A stretch of DNA of 32,349 nucleotides. Origin: Donghicola tyrosinivorans. GTDB taxonomy: Bacteria > Pseudomonadota > Alphaproteobacteria > Rhodobacterales > Rhodobacteraceae. Within the stretch, counting starts at the first letter, position 1. Each line of letters starts with the position of its first letter. Under the pieces are notes generated by a model. The model was not told the DNA's origin. It made no database searches and saw only the letters and a program-made list of their open reading frames with translations. Positions 1,916 through 10,846 of the stretch are shown here, piece by piece. A program made the translations under genes and the position numbers. The DNA is taken from positions 1-32,349 of the forward strand of contig NZ_PVTQ01000027.1 in assembly GCF_003003355.1 (NCBI RefSeq), written 5' to 3'.

Positions 1916-1946
1916 TTGACAAAAGTCAGCACACCGTGCGTATGAT
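1916..1946 (+). promoter_or_regulatory. Candidate sigma-70 promoter of the polyol operon
   Basis: TTGACA at 1916-1921 is a consensus -35. The best -10 is TATGAT at 1941-1946 (spacing 19) or CGTATG two bases earlier (spacing 17). The ATPase GTG start is at 1994, leaving a leader of roughly 40 nt. The rest of 1708-1993 is AT-rich and holds no credible gene. Confidence 0.5.
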
Positions 1947-1993: not shown

Positions 1994-3475
1994 GTGGCAG
2001 ATGCTCTGCTTGAGGTGAACGGGCTGCGAAAGCAGTTCGGGGGTGTTGTTGCGCTGAGCAATGGCCGGTTCGTTTTGCAGCCTGGATCCGTCCATGCGCT
2101 GTGCGGCGGGAACGGTGCGGGCAAGTCGACATTTCTAACCATCGTCATGGGAATTCAGGACCGCGATGGCGGCGTGATCCGGCGCAACGGCAAAGAGGTG
2201 CACTTTGAAAAGCCCTCGGATGCCTTGGACGCTGGCATCAGCATCATCGAGCAGGAACTTTCTCCCGTGCCAGCCATGTCCGTGGCCGAGAACATTTATC
2301 TGGGGCGCGAGCCTGCGGGTTTTCTGGGCCGGATCGATTTTGCCACCATGAACAAGAATGCGCAGGCGTTGCTGGATGAGCTGCATTTCGACATCTCGGC
2401 CAAGTCGCTGATGATGGACCTCACGGTCGCCGAATTGCAGTTGGTCGAGATTGCAAAGGCTCTGTCCTATGACGCCGAGGTGATCATCATGGACGAGCCG
2501 ACCTCGGCCCTTGGTGAGGCTGAGGCAGACCAGTTGTTCGCTGCAATTGAACGCCTGAAAGCGGCAGGCAAAGGGATTATCTATGTCAGCCACCGCCTGT
2601 CCGAGATTTTCCGCATCGCTGACAGCTACACAGTTTTCCGTGACGGGGCCTTTGTGGGCGATGGCGCGATTGCCGATGTGACCCGCGAAAGCCTGATCCA
2701 GATGATTGTGGGACGCCCCCTGACGGAAGAGTTCATCAAGGAAAACACCCCCACTGAAGAAGTGACGCTGAAGGTACAAGACCTGAACACGCGCGGCTGG
2801 GTGCGGGACATCAGCTTTGAGGCGCGGCGCGGGGAAATTCTGGCGTTCTATGGCCTGATGGGATCGGGCCGCAGTGAGGTATTCGAACGCCTGTTCGGCA
2901 TGTCCCCGAATGAAGGCGGCACGATCTCTCTGTTCGGGCAGGCGGTGGATTTCGCCTCGCCCAAGCAGGCGATTGATGGCGGTCTAGCCTTCGTGACCGA
3001 GGATCGAAAAGGCACCGGCTTGGTCCTTAGCGGTGATGTGCGGGCCAACATCTGCCTTGCGCAGTTGGAGCAGTTGTCGCGCGGCCAAGCCATGCAATCC
3101 CGTCTTGAGGCGGACGCCGCCCAAAAGATGATCGAGATGTTCGGGATCAAGACCGCCTCGGACCGGCTAGAGGTCTCGGGCCTGTCGGGGGGAAACCAGC
3201 AAAAGGTAGTCTTGGGCCGGTGGTTCCTGACCAACCCCAAAGTGCTGCTGCTGGATGAGCCCACACGCGGCGTCGATGTGGGCGCAAAGCGGGAAATCTA
3301 CCGGATCATGTCCGATTTTGCCGCCGCGGGCGGGACAGTGATCATGATCAGCTCGGAAACCGATGAGGTTCTGGGGATGGCCGACCGCGTGGTCGTGCTG
3401 CGAGACGGACGCATCAGCGGCACGCTGGATCGGGCGCAATTGTCAGCGGAAACGCTGGTCCACTTGGCAGCCTGA
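1994..3475 (+). CDS. Sugar/polyol ABC importer, double ATPase subunit
   Basis: A 493-aa protein with two ABC ATPase domains in tandem, the architecture of RbsA/XylG/MglA sugar importers. The first domain has Walker A GGNGAGKST (38-46; the usual Glu is Gly) and Walker B VIIMDEPTSA (163-172). The second has the degenerate P-loop GLMGSGRSE (287-295) usual for this family, a canonical signature LSGGNQQKV (397-405) and LLLDEPTRGVD (418-428). It powers uptake through the permease at 3490 using the binding protein at 4593. Translation starts at GTG 1994, six bases after GGAGG at 1984-1988. It is the first gene of the operon that continues with an SDR and DhaK/DhaL kinases, so a sugar alcohol or short ketose is the likely cargo. 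Confidence 0.92.
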   Translation: MADALLEVNGLRKQFGGVVALSNGRFVLQPGSVHALCGGNGAGKSTFLTIVMGIQDRDGGVIRRNGKEVHFEKPSDALDAGISIIEQELSPVPAMSVAENIYLGREPAGFLGRIDFATMNKNAQALLDELHFDISAKSLMMDLTVAELQLVEIAKALSYDAEVIIMDEPTSALGEAEADQLFAAIERLKAAGKGIIYVSHRLSEIFRIADSYTVFRDGAFVGDGAIADVTRESLIQMIVGRPLTEEFIKENTPTEEVTLKVQDLNTRGWVRDISFEARRGEILAFYGLMGSGRSEVFERLFGMSPNEGGTISLFGQAVDFASPKQAIDGGLAFVTEDRKGTGLVLSGDVRANICLAQLEQLSRGQAMQSRLEADAAQKMIEMFGIKTASDRLEVSGLSGGNQQKVVLGRWFLTNPKVLLLDEPTRGVDVGAKREIYRIMSDFAAAGGTVIMISSETDEVLGMADRVVVLRDGRISGTLDRAQLSAETLVHLAA

Positions 3476-3489
3476 GCGGGGGAAAGACA

Positions 3490-4509
3490 ATGACGGTAAA
3501 GGGAGACGCCCTGATGACGGCGCAGACAGACAAACAACGCGATGCGCGGGCGATGGCGACCGAGTTCGCCCAGAAATACGGAATCCTGCTGGCGCTGGTG
3601 CTGGTCTGCGTGATCCTGACCTTTGCGAACGAATACTTCCTGACGGGGCGCAACATCATCAACGTCCTGCGTCAGACGGCGATCAACGGCATTCTGGCGA
3701 TCGGGATGACCTTTGTAATCCTCACGCGGGGAATTGACCTGTCGGTTGGCTCGGTCGTGGCGCTGGCAGGGGTTGTGTCGGCCTCACTGGCGACGACCTC
3801 GACCACCGCTGGGATCGCGGGTGCGCCCTACCCTGCTTTGCTGGCGCTGCTGGCCGGTCTGATCGTGGGCGTCGCGGCGGGCTGGGTGAACGGCATCATC
3901 GTGTCGCGCTACCGCGTGCCTGCCTTTGTGGCGACGCTGGGGATGCTGTCGGCGGCGCGGGGTCTAACGCTGCTGTATGCAGGAGGCAAGCCGGTGCCCG
4001 CCCTGACCGATGGCTACCGCTACATCGGGACGGGCGACATTTTGGGCGTTCCCATGCCGGTCGTGATCTTTGCTGCCGTGTTTTTTGTGGCCCTCTGGGT
4101 GCTGTCGCAATCGCGCTTTGGCCGTCAGGTCTATGCGGCGGGCGGCAACCCCCATGCGGCACGGGTCTCGGGCATCAACGTGAACCGCGTCAAGCTGATG
4201 GTCTATGTGATCTCGGGCGGATTGGCGGGCCTTGCGGGGATGATTTTGGCGGCGCGGACAGGCTCGGCCCTGACGCAGGCAGGCATCGCCTATGAGCTGG
4301 ACGCCATCGCGGCGGTGGTCATCGGCGGCACGTCCCTGTCGGGCGGCGTGGGCAAGGTCACAGGCACCCTGATCGGAGCGCTGCTGATCGCGGTGGTGAA
4401 CAACGGTTTGGATCTGATGGGGGTGGAATCCTACTACCAGCAGGTCATCAAGGGCGGCTTGATCGTAGCGGCAGTCATGCTGGATCAGGCGCGGCACAAA
4501 CAAAGCTGA
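3490..4509 (+). CDS. Sugar/polyol ABC importer, permease
   Basis: A 339-aa polytopic membrane protein of the RbsC/BPD_transp_2 type. It has about eight to ten hydrophobic segments and the family signature around GMTFVILTRGIDLSVGSV (near residues 77-94). A later stretch, AVVIGGTSLSGGVG, is also typical. It forms the translocation channel driven by the ATPase encoded 14 bp upstream. Two starts are possible: ATG 3490 (GGGGG upstream) and ATG 3514 (GGGAG upstream); the first gives the length used here. Cargo is inferred only from the downstream catabolic genes. Confidence 0.9.
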   Translation: MTVKGDALMTAQTDKQRDARAMATEFAQKYGILLALVLVCVILTFANEYFLTGRNIINVLRQTAINGILAIGMTFVILTRGIDLSVGSVVALAGVVSASLATTSTTAGIAGAPYPALLALLAGLIVGVAAGWVNGIIVSRYRVPAFVATLGMLSAARGLTLLYAGGKPVPALTDGYRYIGTGDILGVPMPVVIFAAVFFVALWVLSQSRFGRQVYAAGGNPHAARVSGINVNRVKLMVYVISGGLAGLAGMILAARTGSALTQAGIAYELDAIAAVVIGGTSLSGGVGKVTGTLIGALLIAVVNNGLDLMGVESYYQQVIKGGLIVAAVMLDQARHKQS

Positions 4510-4592: not shown

Positions 4593-5579
4593 ATGATTAA
4601 GGCACTTAAGACCATGACCGCCGCGACGGCGATCCTTGCAGGAACTACTGCATTTGCGGCGGACACCCCCAAGATCGGCGCCGCCGTTTACGGCCTGAAC
4701 GCAGAATTCATGCAGATCTGGGCCGCGGCGCTGGAAAACCACCCCGCTGTGAAAGAAGGCAAGGTCGAAGTGACTGTCTTTGACGGCCGCTATGATGCGC
4801 TGGTCCAGCAGGAACAGTTCGAGACCATGATCACCCAAGGCTATGACGCGATCATCTTTGTTCCGATTGACATCGAAGCAGGCGCGACCGCCGTGCAACT
4901 GGCCGCTGATGAGGGCATTCCGGTCTTCGGCTCGAACACCCGTGTGAACAGCGACCAGCTGACCGCCTATGTGGGCTCGGACGATGTGCAGTCCGGCTAT
5001 ATGGAGGCGAAATACGTGCTGGATCAGATCGGCTGCACCGGCAACGTGGTGATCATCGAAGGCCCCATCGGCCAGTCGGCGCAAATCCAGCGTCTGGAAG
5101 GCAACCAGAAGGCTCTGGCCGAATGCCCCGACGTGAAGGTTGTTGAACAGCAAACCGCCAACTGGTCCCGCGCCGAGGCGCAGACGCTGATGGAAAACTG
5201 GCTGACTGCCCACCCCGGTGAGATCGCAGGCATCATCGGCCAGAATGATGAAATGGCCCTTGGCGCGATCGAGGCGGTCAAGGCCGCTGGCCTGAACGTC
5301 AGCGACTTTGCCATCGCGGGTATTGACGGTGTGACCGACGCGCTGCTGGCGGTGAAAGCGGGGGATATGGCCTCGATCCTTCAGGATGGTGCGGCGCAGG
5401 CGCAGGGCGCGCTGGACCTTGCTATCAAGGCGGTTCAGCCCGACTATGAACCTATGTCGCCCATCTGGGAGGCCTATCCCGACATGCCGTGGAACGGTGG
5501 CGCGGATGCAGAATACAGTGTGCCGTGGACGCCTGTGACCCTCGATAACGTCGACGCCCTGCTAGAGCTGCGCCAGTAA
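4593..5579 (+). CDS. Periplasmic sugar/polyol-binding protein of the ABC importer
   Basis: A 328-aa protein of the ribose-binding type (Peripla_BP_4, PF13407 fold). A signal peptide runs from MIKALKTM to ...TTAFA, with likely cleavage after AFA. The mature chain begins ADTPKIGAAVYGLNAEF, typical of the first beta strand and ligand pocket. The ATG at 4593 has a strong site, GGGAGGAG, at 4579-4586. An in-frame ATG 78 bases upstream lacks one and would bury the signal peptide. The protein should capture the ligand in the periplasm and deliver it to the 3490 permease. PF13407 binding proteins include the tetritol-binding ones studied in mycobacteria, which fits the downstream genes but does not prove the ligand. 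Confidence 0.9.
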   Translation: MIKALKTMTAATAILAGTTAFAADTPKIGAAVYGLNAEFMQIWAAALENHPAVKEGKVEVTVFDGRYDALVQQEQFETMITQGYDAIIFVPIDIEAGATAVQLAADEGIPVFGSNTRVNSDQLTAYVGSDDVQSGYMEAKYVLDQIGCTGNVVIIEGPIGQSAQIQRLEGNQKALAECPDVKVVEQQTANWSRAEAQTLMENWLTAHPGEIAGIIGQNDEMALGAIEAVKAAGLNVSDFAIAGIDGVTDALLAVKAGDMASILQDGAAQAQGALDLAIKAVQPDYEPMSPIWEAYPDMPWNGGADAEYSVPWTPVTLDNVDALLELRQ

Positions 5580-5666: not shown

Positions 5667-6437
5667 ATGGTGACCGGACCTGCAACACTTGATTTCAACT
5701 TTCCGCTGACCGGCAAGACTGCCCTTGTGACCGGCGCGGCCTCTGGCATCGGCGCCGCGATTTCCGAGGCCTTCGCCGCCAAAGGTGTGCGCGTGGCCGT
5801 AGTTGATTTGAACGAAGACGCCGCCAAAGCCAAAGCGCAGGAACTGGGTCACGGCGCGATTGCGGTGGCTTGTAACGTGGCCGACGGGGCCTCGGTCCAA
5901 GCTGCGGTGGATGCGGTGAACGCAGCCTTCGGCGGCATCGACATTTTGGTGAACAGCGCAGGCATCGCTGCCCTTGCCCCCGCCGAGGATATTGACCACG
6001 GCGCTTGGCAGCGCACGCTGGACATCAACCTGACCGGCACTTTCCTGATGGCGCAGGCCGTGGGCCGCGTGATGATCGCCCAAGGCTCGGGCCGGATCAT
6101 CAACCTTGCCTCGCAGGCGGGATCGGTGGCGATTGACGAACATGTGGCCTATTGCGCCTCAAAATTCGGGGTCATCGGCGTCACCAAAACGCTGGCGCTG
6201 GAGTGGGGCGAATTCGGGATCACCGTGAACTCGATCTCTCCGACCGTGGTCCTGACCGAGCTTGGAAAATCCGCGTGGGCCGGTGCCAAGGGCGAGGCGA
6301 TGATTGGCCAGATCCCCACAGGCCGTTTTGCCGAGCCGTGCGAGATTGCAGCAGCGGCGGTGTTTCTGGCCTCGGATGCGACGGGCATGTTCAACGGGGC
6401 CGATCTGATCATCGATGGCGGCTTTACTGTTAAATAA
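5667..6437 (+). CDS. Short-chain dehydrogenase, probable polyol (tetritol-type) dehydrogenase
   Basis: A 256-aa classical SDR. It has the cofactor motif GAASGIG (23-29), NSAG (96-99) and the catalytic set Ser149, Tyr162 and Lys166 (YCASK). The Asp at the end of beta-2 (VAVVDLN) predicts NAD+ preference. The start is ATG 5667, after AAAGAGG. The block around EHVAYCASKFGVIGVTKTLA, then ISPTVVLTELGK, resembles SDRs that travel with DhaKL kinases, such as mycobacterial D-threitol dehydrogenase and Listeria GolD. It probably oxidises the imported polyol to a ketose for the kinases encoded next. D-threitol, erythritol, glycerol or another polyol cannot be distinguished from sequence alone. Confidence 0.8.
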   Translation: MVTGPATLDFNFPLTGKTALVTGAASGIGAAISEAFAAKGVRVAVVDLNEDAAKAKAQELGHGAIAVACNVADGASVQAAVDAVNAAFGGIDILVNSAGIAALAPAEDIDHGAWQRTLDINLTGTFLMAQAVGRVMIAQGSGRIINLASQAGSVAIDEHVAYCASKFGVIGVTKTLALEWGEFGITVNSISPTVVLTELGKSAWAGAKGEAMIGQIPTGRFAEPCEIAAAAVFLASDATGMFNGADLIIDGGFTVK

Positions 6438-6447
6438 GGAATTTCCG

Positions 6448-7446
6448 ATGCAACGTTTTCTGAACAACCCCGACGATATCGTTGATGAAACGGTTGCCGG
6501 ATTTGTCCGCGCCCACCGCGATCTGGTGCGCCTGTCGCCCGATAATGCGCGGGTGGTGGTGTCCCAATCCGCGCCGCAGCAGGGGCGGGTGGGTATCGTG
6601 ACGGGCGGCGGCTCGGGGCATGAGCCTGCGTTTATCGGCTATACGGGGCGCAATCTGGTGGATGCGGTCGCCGTGGGCGAGCTGTTCTCATCCCCCACCG
6701 CGAAAAGCTTTCACGACGCGATCTGTGCGGTAGATGGCGGGGCCGGTGTGGCGGTGCTGTATGGCAACTACGCGGGCGACAACATGAACGTCAAAATGGC
6801 CCGCAAAATGGCCAAGAAAGACGGGATCGATGTGGATACCGTTGTCGCCAACGACGACGTGTGTTCCGCCCCCTTGGCCGAGCGGGAAAAGCGGCGCGGG
6901 GTGGCTGGCGAGATTTTCATGTGGAAGATCGGCGGCGCGAAGGCGGCCAGTGGCGCATCGCTGCCTGAGGTCATCGGCGCGGCGCAAAAGGCCATCGATA
7001 ACTGCCGTTCCATCGGTGTCGGTCTTGGCCCCTGCACCCTGCCCCAAGTGGGCCATCCGAACTTTGAGATAGAACCCGGCAAGATGGAGCTTGGCATCGG
7101 CCACCACGGCGAACCCGGTATGCGCGTCGAAGACCTGCGCACTGCCAATGAGGTTGCCGATGAGATGGTCAAAATCGTACTGGATGATCACGATCTGCCC
7201 GATGGCACCGAAGTGGCCGTTCTGGTCTCGGGCCTTGGGGCGACGCCGGTGAATGAGCTTTATGTGCTCTATGACCGGATCGAACAGCAGATCGAAGCGC
7301 GGGGCCTGAAGGTCTATCGGCCCTTCGTGGGCAACTACTTTACCTCGCTGGAAATGGTCGGCGCGACCCTGACGGTCATGGCGCTGGATGACGAGCTTAA
7401 GGCCCTTTTGGACCATGACGCCGCCAGCCCCGGCCTGACCACCTGA
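6448..7446 (+). CDS. DhaK-type ketose kinase, substrate-binding subunit
   Basis: A 332-aa single-domain DhaK (DAK1). The substrate residues are present: His58 in GGGSGHEP, Asp111 in YGNYAGD, and the His that forms the covalent hemiaminal with the ketose (His220 in GHHGEPG). It starts at ATG 6448 (AAGGA upstream), 10 bp after the SDR. It should bind dihydroxyacetone or erythrulose and receive phosphate from the ADP/ATP-carrying DhaL encoded at 7458. No DhaM (PTS phosphodonor) gene is in the window, so an ATP-dependent DhaKL as in L-erythrulose kinase is likelier than the E. coli PTS type. The tetrulose-phosphate isomerases of the known tetritol pathway were not found here. Confidence 0.9.
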   Translation: MQRFLNNPDDIVDETVAGFVRAHRDLVRLSPDNARVVVSQSAPQQGRVGIVTGGGSGHEPAFIGYTGRNLVDAVAVGELFSSPTAKSFHDAICAVDGGAGVAVLYGNYAGDNMNVKMARKMAKKDGIDVDTVVANDDVCSAPLAEREKRRGVAGEIFMWKIGGAKAASGASLPEVIGAAQKAIDNCRSIGVGLGPCTLPQVGHPNFEIEPGKMELGIGHHGEPGMRVEDLRTANEVADEMVKIVLDDHDLPDGTEVAVLVSGLGATPVNELYVLYDRIEQQIEARGLKVYRPFVGNYFTSLEMVGATLTVMALDDELKALLDHDAASPGLTT

Positions 7447-7457
7447 AAGGAACCAAT

Positions 7458-8096
7458 ATGACAGCCATCACGAACAAGGGCAGCGGTCCCATCATTCAGG
7501 AGATCGCCGCCGTTATCGTTGAAAACAAAGCCTATCTGTCCGAGATCGACGGCAAGATCGGGGACGGTGATCACGGGGTCAACATGGCCAAGGGCTTTGG
7601 CCGCGCCTCTGACCGGATCAGCGCCGAGGATACGCTGACCGATGCCATGCAGACCCTGTCTGATGTTCTGATGGCCGAGATTGGCGGCTCGATGGGGCCG
7701 CTTTACGGGATGATGTTTTCCGACATGGCAGACCATCTGGAGGATACGGACCAGATTGATGCCGCTGTCTTCGGGGCGATGTTGCGCGCGGGTCTGGAGG
7801 GCGTGCAGGAAATAGGCTCGGCCTCGGTCGGGGACAAGACTCTGCTGGACACCTTTGTGCCCGCGCTAGAGGCCTATGACTCGGCACTGGCTGGCGGCGC
7901 AGATTTCGCTGCCGCATTGGATGCTATGAAAGCCGCCGCCGCCACAGGGCGGGACAGCACCATTGATATGGTTGCAAAAATTGGGCGCTCGGCCCGTTTG
8001 GGGGAACGTTCGCGCGGGGTGCTGGATGCGGGGGCCACGTCCTGTTGCATGATCCTGACCGGCTTTGCCGACGGGATTAAAACGCGCCTGACATAA
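7458..8096 (+). CDS. DhaL-type kinase subunit 1 (nucleotide-binding)
   Basis: A 212-aa DhaL (DAK2) domain. The Mg-nucleotide-binding aspartates are conserved as Asp31, Asp36 and Asp38 in DGKIGDGDHG. Other family motifs are GPLYGMMF, GDKTLLD and LGERSRG. The C-terminal motif usually written GHxDPGA is altered to GVLDAGA (His to Leu, Pro to Ala), unlike the second DhaL at 8136. It is translated 11 bp after DhaK (AAAGGA upstream of ATG 7458) and probably forms the DhaK-DhaL kinase with that protein. Whether the altered motif affects nucleotide binding or only specificity is unknown. Confidence 0.88.
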   Translation: MTAITNKGSGPIIQEIAAVIVENKAYLSEIDGKIGDGDHGVNMAKGFGRASDRISAEDTLTDAMQTLSDVLMAEIGGSMGPLYGMMFSDMADHLEDTDQIDAAVFGAMLRAGLEGVQEIGSASVGDKTLLDTFVPALEAYDSALAGGADFAAALDAMKAAAATGRDSTIDMVAKIGRSARLGERSRGVLDAGATSCCMILTGFADGIKTRLT

Positions 8097-8135: not shown

Positions 8136-8774
8136 ATGACCCAGATCGACAGCGCCTTTCTTATCCGTTTCTTCCGCCTTGCCTCTGAGCAACTGGAAGC
8201 CGACCGTAGTTACCTGTGCAAACTGGATGGTGCGATTGGTGACGGGGATCACGGCACCTCAATGGCGCTTGGGTTTGCGGCGGTGGTCGAACGTCTGCGC
8301 CGCCCCTTGATGCCAGAGCCACCCACCCCCGACGCTATCCTGACCGAGGCCGCAAAGGCCTTTCTGTCAGAGGTCGGCGCCACCGTTGGCCCTCTTTACG
8401 CCAGCGCGTTCCTGAGCGGCGCGAAATGCTTGGCCGCTGGTCCGCTTGAAACGCGGCAGATCGGCACTTTGATCCGTGCCTTCGCGGACGGCATTCGCAC
8501 CCGTGGCAAGGCCGAGACTGGTGACAAAACCATGCTGGACGTGTGGTATCCCGCTGCTTTGGCCGCCGAGAACGCTTGCGGCGATGGCGCGGCCCTTGCC
8601 GATATCCTCACTGCCATTACCGAGGCCGCCACGGCGGGTCGCGACAGCACCGGCCCGATGATCGCCTCGCGCGGGCGGGCGGCACGGCTGAATGAGCGCA
8701 GCATCGGCCATATCGACCCGGGCGCGGCCAGCGCCGCGCTGATCCTGTCGGTTCTGCCCGAGGTGATCCTCTGA
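8136..8774 (+). CDS. DhaL-type kinase subunit 2, paired with the SorC-DhaK fusion
   Basis: A 212-aa DhaL homologue with Asp31, Asp36 and Asp38 in DGAIGDGDHG, GDKTMLDVW, and an intact nucleotide-lid motif NERSIGHIDPGA. It therefore looks more canonical than DhaL 1. Its TGA overlaps the ATG of the next gene (TGATG at 8772-8776), so it is translationally coupled to the SorC-DhaK fusion and is the natural partner for that DhaK domain. The start has GGAAGG about 13 bases upstream, rather far. It may serve as a second kinase subunit, as a signalling partner, or both. Confidence 0.88.
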   Translation: MTQIDSAFLIRFFRLASEQLEADRSYLCKLDGAIGDGDHGTSMALGFAAVVERLRRPLMPEPPTPDAILTEAAKAFLSEVGATVGPLYASAFLSGAKCLAAGPLETRQIGTLIRAFADGIRTRGKAETGDKTMLDVWYPAALAAENACGDGAALADILTAITEAATAGRDSTGPMIASRGRAARLNERSIGHIDPGAASAALILSVLPEVIL

Positions 8775-10846
8775 TGGCCGCCCCGCGCAAGCGCCCGACC
8801 CGCGAAGCCGGCACCAAACGCCCGCCCCTACGCTTTGGCGAGGATGTGCTGCTGTGGGCCGCGTGGCTTTACTATGAAGAGGGCCTGACCCAAGGCGAGA
8901 TTGCCGACATTCTGGGGGCCTCGCGCCCAACGGTGAATAACTATCTGGCCGATGCCCGCGCCAGCGGTGTGGTCAATATCTCGATCGCGGGGCCGCGCCT
9001 GCGGGCGGTCACCACCGCCCGCGCCTTGGAAGAGCATTTCGGTCTGGGCAGTTGCTATGTGATCCCCAGCGAACGGGGCGAACGGTCGCTTTATGACAGC
9101 TTGGGCTCGATGGCGGCGCAGGCGCTGCCGTCCTATGTGTTCTCGGGCGATGTGGTGGGCATATCATGGGGCCGCACCATGCTGGCGCTGGCCAATGCAA
9201 CGCCCGATAGCAGCTATAGCGATGTCACAGTGGTGCAGGCCACCGGCGGCACTACGGCGGCGATCACCTACACGCCCGAGGCTTGCGCCACCCGTCTGGC
9301 GGACCGCCTGAAGGCCAATTTTATTCCCCTGTCCGCGCCCGCCATCGTCAGTTCCGGCCAAGCGCGGCAAATCCTTGAAACTGAACCCGTCATCGCCGAG
9401 CAACTGGCCCATCACACCCGCATGAACCGCGTGTTTCTGGGCGTCTCCAGTCTGCGGCAGAACTCGACCATCCACACCAGTGGCTTCTTTGAGCCGGGTT
9501 TGCAGTCGTCATACGCGGCTGGGGTCGGCAGCATTCTGGGCCGTATCATTGATGCCCAAGGCGATGAGGTAGACGGCCCCCTGAAGGACCGCACCATCGG
9601 CATGGGGCTGGATCAGTTGCGGCAGGTCTCAACCCGCGTTCTGGTCGCGGGCGGCTATGACAAAATCCCCGCCATTCTGGCTGCCATGCGCGGGGGCTAT
9701 GTCAGCGAGTTGATCACCGATCTGGACACCGCCGAAGGCATCTTGCGGGCGGATGGCGTGGAAATGGACACCCTGCGCCCCGCCAAAACGCCGAAAGCCA
9801 AGTCTAACGACGACAGTACCGAGGCCACCCGCAGCCGGATCAAGAAATTCATCAACGCCCCCGACACCATCGTGACCCAAGCGATGGAGGGGGCCTTTGC
9901 CGCCCATCCCGATCTGATCGCGCCGATTGACGGCTCGCTTCGGGCGGTGCGCTCGGTCTCGGAAAAGCCTGCGGGCAAGGTAGGCATCGTGATCGGCGGC
10001 GGCGCGGGCCACGAACCCAGCTTCATCGGCTTTGCAGGGCAAGGGCTGGCGGATGCGGTGGCGGTGGGGAACATCTTTGCCTCGCCCCCGCCCGACCGGA
10101 TTCTGACCTGCACGCAGGACGTAGATCGGGGCGCGGGGGTTCTGTACATCTACGGCAATTACACCGGCGACGTGATGAACTTTGACATGGCTTCAGAGCT
10201 TGCCCGCCTTGACGGGATCGAGGTGCGCACGGTTGTCACCACAGACGATATCGCCTCGGCTCCGCTGGACAGCCGCCGCACGCGGCGCGGGACCGGCGGC
10301 AATATCTTTACCTTCAAGGTCGCGGGCGCGGCCAGTGCGCGGATGATGCCACTGCCCGAGGTCACGCGTCTGGCGCAAAAGGCCAATGACGCCTGTCTGA
10401 CCGTGGGCGTCGCGTTGGAATCCTGCGCCATGCCTGACACCATGCGCCCTAGTTTCACCATCCCCGATGATGAGATCGAGTTCGGCGTTGGCGTTCACGG
10501 CGAGCCGGGCATGACACGCCTGCCCCTAGCCCCCGCTGACCGGATCGTGGACCGCATCTGCGACAAGATCTTTGACGAGATGCACCTGACCACGGGCCAG
10601 CGCGTGGCGGTGCTGGTCAATTCGCTTGGGGCCACCCCGCAGATGGAACTGTTCGTGCTGAACCGCCGCCTGAACGAACGTCTTGCCGCACGCGGCGCGG
10701 TGGTGGTGAAGACGCTGGTCGGGAACTACTGCACTTCGCTGGACATGGTGGGGGCGTCGATCACGATCATGGCGCTGGATACAGAGCTTGAGGATTTGCT
10801 GGCCGATCCCTGTCATGGCTTTGGCTGGCAGCAGACACGGGCCTAG
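8774..10846 (+). CDS. Fusion of SorC-type transcription regulator and DhaK kinase domain
   Basis: A 690-aa two-part protein. Residues 24-68 form a helix-turn-helix (WLYYEEGLTQGEIADILGAS, then RPTVNNYLADAR). Residues ~75-335 match the sugar-binding effector domain of SorC/DeoR-type regulators. A short polar linker (~336-355) leads to a complete DhaK domain (356-690). The DhaK part keeps the substrate residues: His413 in GGGAGHEP, Asp466 in GNYTGD, and the covalent-binding His575 in GVHGEPG. It therefore looks catalytically competent rather than a relic. It is the last gene of the polyol operon, coupled to DhaL 2. It probably controls the operon while also binding, and perhaps phosphorylating, the ketose. 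I recall this domain order as an annotated but uncharacterised type. Confidence 0.9.
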   Translation: MAAPRKRPTREAGTKRPPLRFGEDVLLWAAWLYYEEGLTQGEIADILGASRPTVNNYLADARASGVVNISIAGPRLRAVTTARALEEHFGLGSCYVIPSERGERSLYDSLGSMAAQALPSYVFSGDVVGISWGRTMLALANATPDSSYSDVTVVQATGGTTAAITYTPEACATRLADRLKANFIPLSAPAIVSSGQARQILETEPVIAEQLAHHTRMNRVFLGVSSLRQNSTIHTSGFFEPGLQSSYAAGVGSILGRIIDAQGDEVDGPLKDRTIGMGLDQLRQVSTRVLVAGGYDKIPAILAAMRGGYVSELITDLDTAEGILRADGVEMDTLRPAKTPKAKSNDDSTEATRSRIKKFINAPDTIVTQAMEGAFAAHPDLIAPIDGSLRAVRSVSEKPAGKVGIVIGGGAGHEPSFIGFAGQGLADAVAVGNIFASPPPDRILTCTQDVDRGAGVLYIYGNYTGDVMNFDMASELARLDGIEVRTVVTTDDIASAPLDSRRTRRGTGGNIFTFKVAGAASARMMPLPEVTRLAQKANDACLTVGVALESCAMPDTMRPSFTIPDDEIEFGVGVHGEPGMTRLPLAPADRIVDRICDKIFDEMHLTTGQRVAVLVNSLGATPQMELFVLNRRLNERLAARGAVVVKTLVGNYCTSLDMVGASITIMALDTELEDLLADPCHGFGWQQTRA

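Follow-up and report, generated by a model that had tools for sequence, protein, structure and literature searches.

A SorC-type regulator fused to a DhaK kinase subunit in Donghicola tyrosinivorans and its possible sensing of a self-made phosphoketose

Why should the regulator of a sugar operon carry a complete kinase subunit, and which ligand would such a protein read? The question is raised by a 32,349-nucleotide (nt) stretch of Donghicola tyrosinivorans DNA (assembly GCF_003003355.1, contig NZ_PVTQ01000027.1), called the window here at its full length, in which one open reading frame (ORF) joins a SorC-type transcriptional regulator to the dihydroxyacetone kinase subunit DhaK. An earlier note, made from the letters of the sequence, had described this protein as a trigger enzyme, and its claims were followed up computationally. 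The protein is very probably the regulator of its operon and the carrier of a conserved kinase pair; a more tentative proposal, preferred here at less than even probability, is that the SorC pocket of a repressor senses a phosphoketose made by its own DhaK together with the adjacently encoded DhaL (DhaL2). It is a real, conserved and database-named regulator-kinase, undescribed as far as was searched, in which known parts stand in a new arrangement.

The fusion protein and its kinase pair

The fusion, its parts and its partner gene are as follows.

8774..10846, + strand: SorC-DhaK fusion, 690 amino acids; ORF from ATG to TAG with Pfam matches to both halves
8846..9748, + strand: SorC half, residues 25-325, helix-turn-helix (HTH) and sugar-binding effector domain; PF04198 and alignment to DeoR and LsrR
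9455..9475, + strand: codons of Arg228 to His234, fused-specific residues; comparison of 40 fusions with 34 non-fused SorC proteins
9662..9664, + strand: Lys297 codon, AGGxxK motif; in 40/40 fusions and also in 31/34 non-fused SorC proteins
9770..9832, + strand: linker, residues 333-353; predicted local distance difference test score (pLDDT) below 50 in the model
9842..10816, + strand: DhaK half, residues 357-681
10010..10012, + strand: His413 codon, in GGGAGHEP (GHEP motif); alignment
10169..10171, + strand: Asp466 codon, in NYTGD; alignment
10496..10498, + strand: His575 codon, in GVHGEPG; alignment
8136..8774, + strand: DhaL2, the partner of the fusion; PF02734 match (E 9e-45) and TGATG overlap

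In the Pfam search, the sugar-binding domain PF04198 is matched at residues 81-325 (E 2.1e-54) and the Dak1 domain PF02733 at residues 372-681 (E 8.2e-112), with weaker HTH matches at about residues 29-80, which confirms the domain order that had been read from the sequence and gives the protein the N-terminal HTH and PF04198 effector domain of the SorC family. Residues 25-326 also align with the DeoR and LsrR chains in a second look at Foldseek hits, a re-examination that says nothing on contact with DNA or partner. In the DhaK half, the motifs around His413, Asp466 and His575 align to the matching motifs of E. coli DhaK, His575 being presumably the covalent substrate-binding histidine. The earlier note had placed all three residues correctly, and they are invariant in 39/39 aligned fusions (L013, a near-copy of locus L012, was dropped; a second alignment was made without L013, L103 and L104), so that the Dak1 domain has its catalytic His and Asp and its substrate-binding His. 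Catalytic and DNA-binding parts thus both appear intact in one protein, as expected of a trigger enzyme. The score against the NCBIfam DhaK equivalog TIGR02363 is 364.5 bits, below the cut-off of 406, and the separate DhaK1 of the same operon also falls below it (348.1 bits); the score against the DhaQ model TIGR02362 is 208.1 bits, below a cut-off of 413.

The partner is equally constant. A DhaL gene lies within 169 nt of the fusion, measured between ends of hidden Markov model matches, in 40/40 loci (upstream in 23, downstream in 17), and in the window the stop codon TGA of DhaL2 overlaps the start codon ATG of the fusion by one base in TGATG, the coupling to which the earlier note had drawn attention. 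In L019 the adjoining DhaL is preceded by a separate DhaK, and it may work with that DhaK as well as with the fusion. The motif residues D, D, D and H of the nucleotide site and the GPLY stretch are unchanged in the partner DhaLs of 40/40 loci, so that each locus has a DhaL with an intact nucleotide site. A DhaQ-like dead kinase is not supported, since the DhaQ model scores below its cut-off and the catalytic and partner nucleotide-site residues are intact; the fused DhaK looks like an ordinary kinase subunit. The phosphodonor DhaM (TIGR02364) has no match in the genome of D. tyrosinivorans, with positive controls in E. coli, L. lactis and H. volcanii; the kinases should therefore use ATP rather than the phosphotransferase system (PTS), and a PTS-driven kinase of the DhaKLM type is not supported. 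Within the GD[G/A]DHG motif of the partner DhaLs, Ala occurs in 29/40 and Gly in 11/40, including the window. In the DhaL tree, the DhaL1 group, which accompanies separate DhaK1 proteins, forms a clade of 30 rows; the partner DhaLs do not group as a single clade (five changes) and are intermixed with the DhaLs of unfused DhaKs related to the fused one.

The distribution of the fusion is patchy. Among the best 80 loci listed of a longer set, both halves are matched in 32 and lie in a single reading frame in 31 of these, which argues that the fusion is not an assembly accident; the remaining locus, L029, has SorC, DhaK and DhaL as separate adjacent genes. A second search matched both halves in 12 of 101 genomes, some overlapping the first set, and 102 plasmid records, 66 of them from Sinorhizobium, match over at least 80% of the length of the fusion. 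In 61 genomes (its own, three of the same genus and 57 others), and likewise in 385 genomes of the class (threshold E 1e-115, with no more than three candidates scored per genome), the fusion was found in its own genome alone. The architecture is already named in databases, as had been anticipated: in the 30 plasmid records listed, wherever a gene is named under the match, it is called 'bifunctional sugar-binding transcriptional regulator/dihydroxyacetone kinase subunit DhaK' (for instance on Sinorhizobium meliloti pSymB and Shinella pShin-04), a product name that comes without operator, partner or mechanism. A paper describing the fusion or its mechanism was not found in the open-licence literature searched, in agreement with the earlier note. 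As a separate observation, on contig C2 of genome G051 (261694-263941) a DhaK match adjoins a distant SorC match (the SorC of L088) on the same strand in separate frames.

In some genomes the fused kinase stands alone. A common set of a binding protein, two permeases, two ATPases and a PfkB kinase is seen in three settings: with unfused SorC, DhaK and DhaL (L029); with a separate DhaK-DhaL pair plus the fusion (L016, L019, L031 and L047); and with just the fusion and a single DhaL (L021, L022, L023 and L025, all Aurantimonadaceae, PfkB not being detected in L023). Searches of the four genomes of this third setting for Dak1 (E up to 1e-20) and Dak2 (E up to 1e-10) each gave a single match, the fusion and its neighbour, respectively (assembly completeness is not reported), and a second triosephosphate isomerase (TIM)-family gene lies inside the locus in L021, L023 and L025 and on the same contig outside it in L022. 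Should these loci degrade a ketose by way of this kinase family, the task must fall to the fused DhaK, judging by gene content. In this respect the trigger-enzyme proposal of the earlier note is strengthened; the part in which ketose is read directly through the active site is left unproven.

The SorC half and the operator

The SorC halves of the fusions form one clade (support 99/97), next to which the unfused L029 branches with weak support (94/49). The DhaK halves form two clades of 36 and four, the four grouping with the unfused DhaK of L048 (100/88), in a tree of 127 domains reduced to 98 by similarity with all 40 fusions retained; the duplicates L081, L093, L094, L095 and L102 were dropped from the trees and the window row was retained. 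Two changes between fused and unfused states are needed in the DhaK tree and one in the SorC tree, and possible histories are a single early fusion, with later fission or replacement of DhaK, or else two fusions.

Columns were called fused-specific when a residue occurs in 92% of fusions and in at most 18% of their nearest unfused relatives. By this rule 6/88 conserved SorC columns qualify: N55 in the HTH, L106, L148, A156, R228 and H234, of which R228 and H234 add positive charge. Of 40 fusions, 39 have R and one has K at position 228, as against one R and one K among 34 non-fused SorC proteins, and H234 is found in 38/40 and 1/34, respectively; A156, R228 and H234 come after strands ending at 155 and 222 in the model. 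The ligand region of the SorC half is conserved, not degenerate. In the DhaK half the same rule, applied against the nearest unfused DhaKs, gives 1/116 columns (363), and another rule again gives one (657); a new coupling surface on DhaK, searched by both rules, was dropped. The inter-domain stretch varies from 24 to 35 amino acids across 37 fusions, with low confidence for the linker in the model.

Control of the operon by the fusion, which the earlier note had assumed, is supported by a palindrome conserved upstream of the operons, TGACA-N2-TGTCA; the two elements in the window are as follows.

1917..1928, no strand assigned: probable operator TGACAAAAGTCA, one mismatch to the conserved palindrome
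1916..1946, + strand: possible promoter, TTGACA (1916-1921), 19 nt, TATGAT (1941-1946), overlapping the operator

The promoter scan covered spacers of 16-18 nt, and this 19-nt candidate is therefore outside its list. The earlier note had placed the operator at 1865-1892; that stretch is AT-rich, and the shared element lies elsewhere, at 1917-1928. The palindrome was read by eye in the regions upstream of 15 operons, which hold 11 sites of no more than one mismatch, compared with 0.10 on average after shuffling (maximum 2 in 200). A set of 20 regions was obtained by adding eight (five with limits set by eye) and dropping the near-duplicates L013, L011 and L030, with L010 left out of the operator regions because it meets a contig end; at spacer 2 it holds 14 such sites, where the other spacers from 0 to 15 give 0-2 and a reversed second half at spacer 2 gives none. 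Both tests partly reuse the source of the motif itself. At up to two mismatches a site is found in 18/20 regions, and the distance within 8/22 pairs of sites is exactly 21 bp, or two turns of the helix. A held-out test used 18 regions that had played no part in reading the motif, each made up of the 330 nt preceding a gene start that was set mechanically, and with L030 dropped: 11 sites with at most one mismatch occur in 10/18 regions (shuffled mean 0.16, maximum 2 in 200), three are exact (0.01 shuffled), every other spacer from 0 to 15 gives 0-1 sites, and at up to two mismatches 14/18 regions have a site. On this comparative evidence a palindromic operator, typical of the SorC family, appears to lie at the promoter of the regulated operon, and its position on the -35 box suggests repression.

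The palindrome also stands beside the unfused regulator of L029. Palindromes of the same type are present at the start of non-fused SorC genes near the fused clade (L024:14128, L025:17832 and L025:17864), from which the operator type may predate the fusion. A genome-wide search was too unspecific for a regulon call, with 87 sites per strand at up to one mismatch where the reversed pattern gave 34. On contig C6 of the same genome, three exact copies of the palindrome TGACAGCTGTCA fall within 5.3 kb (135307, 139202 and 140557) and are perhaps sites of another regulator. A possible UP element is the AT-rich stretch at 1865-1910, which directly precedes the possible promoter; the upstream regions of L002, L004 and L018 have AT-rich stretches too.

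Which ligand is read

In the preferred account, the SorC half would repress an operon for uptake and breakdown of a ketose or polyol through TGACA-N2-TGTCA sites at its promoter; the DhaK half and the adjacently encoded DhaL would form a working ATP-dependent kinase for short-chain ketoses; and the product of this kinase, a ketose phosphate (dihydroxyacetone phosphate (DHAP) or erythrulose-4-phosphate), would bind the SorC pocket and release the repressor. Its basis in the sequence is the architecture, the kinase residues in both subunits, the partner, the palindrome, the fused-specific basic residues of SorC and the sole-kinase status in four genomes, and from these we infer kinase activity, repression over activation, the identity of the ligand and product sensing. 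A DhaK-DhaL pair converts dihydroxyacetone to DHAP. According to PMC11229326, SorC effector domains bind phosphosugars, SorC-family proteins are tetrameric on DNA, and DHAP releases CggR from DNA, the dissociation constant being about 3.3 uM for the CggR effector domain; similarly, PMC3794749 has phospho-AI-2 (phosphorylated autoinducer-2), made by LsrK, releasing LsrR. With two family-specific basic residues in SorC and, across a linker of variable length, a complete kinase subunit that has its own DhaL, phosphoketose sensing is the simplest reading. A sharper form of it, slightly less probable, is that once a ketose is phosphorylated by the attached DhaK and DhaL2, the SorC pocket of that very protein or tetramer captures it, and that in L021, L022, L023 and L025 the regulator would be the only ketose kinase of the family in the cell, making repression and catabolism inseparable there.

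Several observations weigh against this account. The placement of the basic residues at the pocket comes from position in the model, where confidence is low at 231-240 (pLDDT 61), and the acid of the SorC pocket (D/E in 23/34 non-fused proteins) is missing in 40/40 fusions; the same acid is also absent from the 11 nearest non-fused SorC proteins, for which reason its loss was rejected as a hallmark of the fusion. The contrast between SorC and DhaK columns is confounded, the unfused SorC proteins used having 38% mean identity and the K2-type unfused DhaKs 60%; against DhaKs at 44% identity, the fused DhaK has 13/116 specific columns. This like-for-like count weakens the argument that SorC alone was retuned, and product sensing has been marked down somewhat for it, the self-made-inducer and sole-kinase case marginally, and occupancy sensing, described below, has been raised a little. 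As for the operator, the match in the window alone is not significant (0.57 expected per window), TGACA is itself similar to a -35 box, no site at up to two mismatches is found in two of the 20 regions (L002 and L005) or in the held-out regions L005, L019, L022 and L031, and at that tolerance other spacers of the 20-region set also score (2-16 sites vs 33). Operons of the window type already contain DhaK1-DhaL1, so that catabolism there can do without the fused kinase, and the fused pair is the less conserved one: across the 25 of 40 loci that have both pairs, pairwise identities average 77% for DhaK1, 66% for DhaL1, 62% for the fused DhaK and 47% for DhaL2, and the fused DhaK and DhaL2 are below DhaK1 and DhaL1 in 300/300 comparisons each, although DhaK1/DhaL1 were taken at 58% identity or more to those of the window, which favours them. 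The DhaL2 and fused DhaK of the window also sit on long end branches (1.2 and 0.62) relative to their nearest relatives.

The alternative that comes close behind, itself only a tentative possibility, is an occupancy sensor of the DhaR or DhaQ type, in which free ketose at His575 and docking of DhaL2-ADP or DhaL2-ATP would alter the fused DhaK, the change would be relayed to the SorC tetramer, and catalysis would clear the signal. DhaR and DhaQ sense through DhaK occupancy and DhaL docking. The titles of PDB entries 4lrx/4lry have E. coli DhaK bound to its regulator DhaR; entry 4LRZ, which a table in PMC10647483 gives for DhaR with ADP, has the same DhaL sequence as 3pnl; and the title of 2iu4 calls the DhaK-like DhaQ of L. 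lactis an operon co-activator. Occupancy sensing would account for the retention of all substrate-site residues and of the DhaL partner even beside a second DhaK-DhaL pair, and pairwise identities of the fused DhaK correlate with those of SorC at 0.91 and of DhaL2 at 0.83, values that linkage and shared descent can also yield (DhaK1-DhaL1 0.80; fused DhaK-DhaL1 0.75). What tells against it is the linker, low in confidence and variable in length, the conserved ligand region of SorC, and the single fused-specific DhaK column, though coupling might have needed a new contact surface. The earlier note had suggested a scheme of this kind, with ketose flux read at the DhaK site and DhaL docking as the switch; it is not supported or is unproven, and ligand sensing by SorC fits at least as well, given the near-unchanged DhaK, the weak and variable linker and the two basic residues added in the SorC ligand region.

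A loose bifunctional protein, in which SorC and DhaK act independently, the fusion sets only a 1:1 supply of regulator and kinase, and SorC binds an ordinary ligand, is unlikely, even if the same variable linker and a DhaK little altered from its nearest relatives agree with it and L029, with SorC, DhaK and DhaL as separate genes by the same transporters, shows that the set exists without fusion; the SorC halves form one clade that has stayed fused over many genera and plasmids, and R228 and H234 are common to fusions in operons with different transporters. Least probable is a decaying sensor copy, a fused DhaK losing function in operons that have DhaK1-DhaL1, for although the lower conservation of the fused pair and the long end branches of the window are of the kind expected, the catalytic and nucleotide-site residues are invariant, the window included, and the four near-invariant DhaK positions at which its fused DhaK departs spare the catalytic three. 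The fused pair, by comparison of sequences, evolves faster yet retains its catalytic residues.

The operon and known systems

The fusion is the last gene of an operon with the order ATP-binding cassette (ABC) ATPase, permease, binding protein, short-chain dehydrogenase/reductase (SDR), DhaK1, DhaL1, DhaL2 and fusion, in which gaps of 14, 83, 87, 10, 11 and 39 nt are followed by the one-base overlap. The genes upstream of DhaL2 are the following.

1994..3475, + strand: ABC sugar ATPase, first gene of the operon, GTG start; best NCBIfam match RbsA, below cut-off
3490..4509, + strand: ABC sugar permease; best match ribose permease, below cut-off
4593..5579, + strand: periplasmic sugar-binding protein; best NCBIfam match RbsB, below cut-off
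5667..6437, + strand: SDR dehydrogenase, GolD/DthD family; 372 bits, above the NCBIfam cut-off of 286
6448..7446, + strand: DhaK1, separate DhaK; profile match and DhaK tree
7458..8096, + strand: DhaL1, in the DhaL group accompanying separate DhaK1; profile match and DhaL tree

Membership of the SDR in the GolD/DthD family suggests as substrate a polyol of the threitol or glycerol type, which we take to be converted to erythrulose or dihydroxyacetone. TIM and RpiB matches about 50 nt apart lie on a different contig of the same genome, and together with the SDR they suggest threitol and erythrulose, on our assumption about the pathway, with dihydroxyacetone as a further candidate. On contig C15 (25671-31515) a cluster of the SorC-family gene L106, a second gene of the TIM family (30321) and one of the RpiB family (31099) presumably resembles an erythritol locus of the EryD/EryH/EryI type. 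Elsewhere, DhaK1 and DhaL1 are joined as one ORF beside the fusion in L006, L009, L011, L015, L024 and L026; in L020 the ABC, SDR, DhaK1 and DhaL1 genes are divergent from DhaL2 and the fusion, and the regulator pair should have its own promoter there.

A repressor-kinase with its own DhaL, if true, would hold cause and effect in one protein, and the question becomes whether substrate on the kinase or product in the pocket is read. Handles on this question are the operator, the partner, His413, His575, Arg228, His234 and Lys297, and genomes with and without a second DhaK. The fusion occurs in Sinorhizobium meliloti, which is genetically manipulable.

DhaK-type proteins serve elsewhere as metabolic kinase, as partner of DhaR and, in DhaQ, as coactivator. 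Compared with the DhaK/DhaL and DhaR of E. coli, in which DhaR is an enhancer-binding activator, the regulator here is SorC-type and covalently joined to DhaK, and DhaM has no match in the genome. DhaQ of L. lactis, the coactivator of DhaS, is a separate protein that is not known to work with a DhaL, whereas the fusion has an adjacent DhaL gene in 40/40 loci and scores only half the cut-off of the DhaQ model (208 of 413 bits). Relative to the DeoR subfamily of the SorC family (B. subtilis DeoR, E. coli LsrR and Klebsiella SorC), the fusion adds a complete C-terminal DhaK, is without the pocket acid, like the 11 nearest non-fused proteins, and has the fused-specific Arg228 and His234. The proteins that NCBI names as bifunctional share the same architecture, under a product name only. 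LsrK is a kinase of another family. Its pairing with LsrR is a possible likeness in mechanism: according to PMC3794749, a kinase makes the phosphorylated inducer of a SorC-family repressor, with two proteins there and one here.

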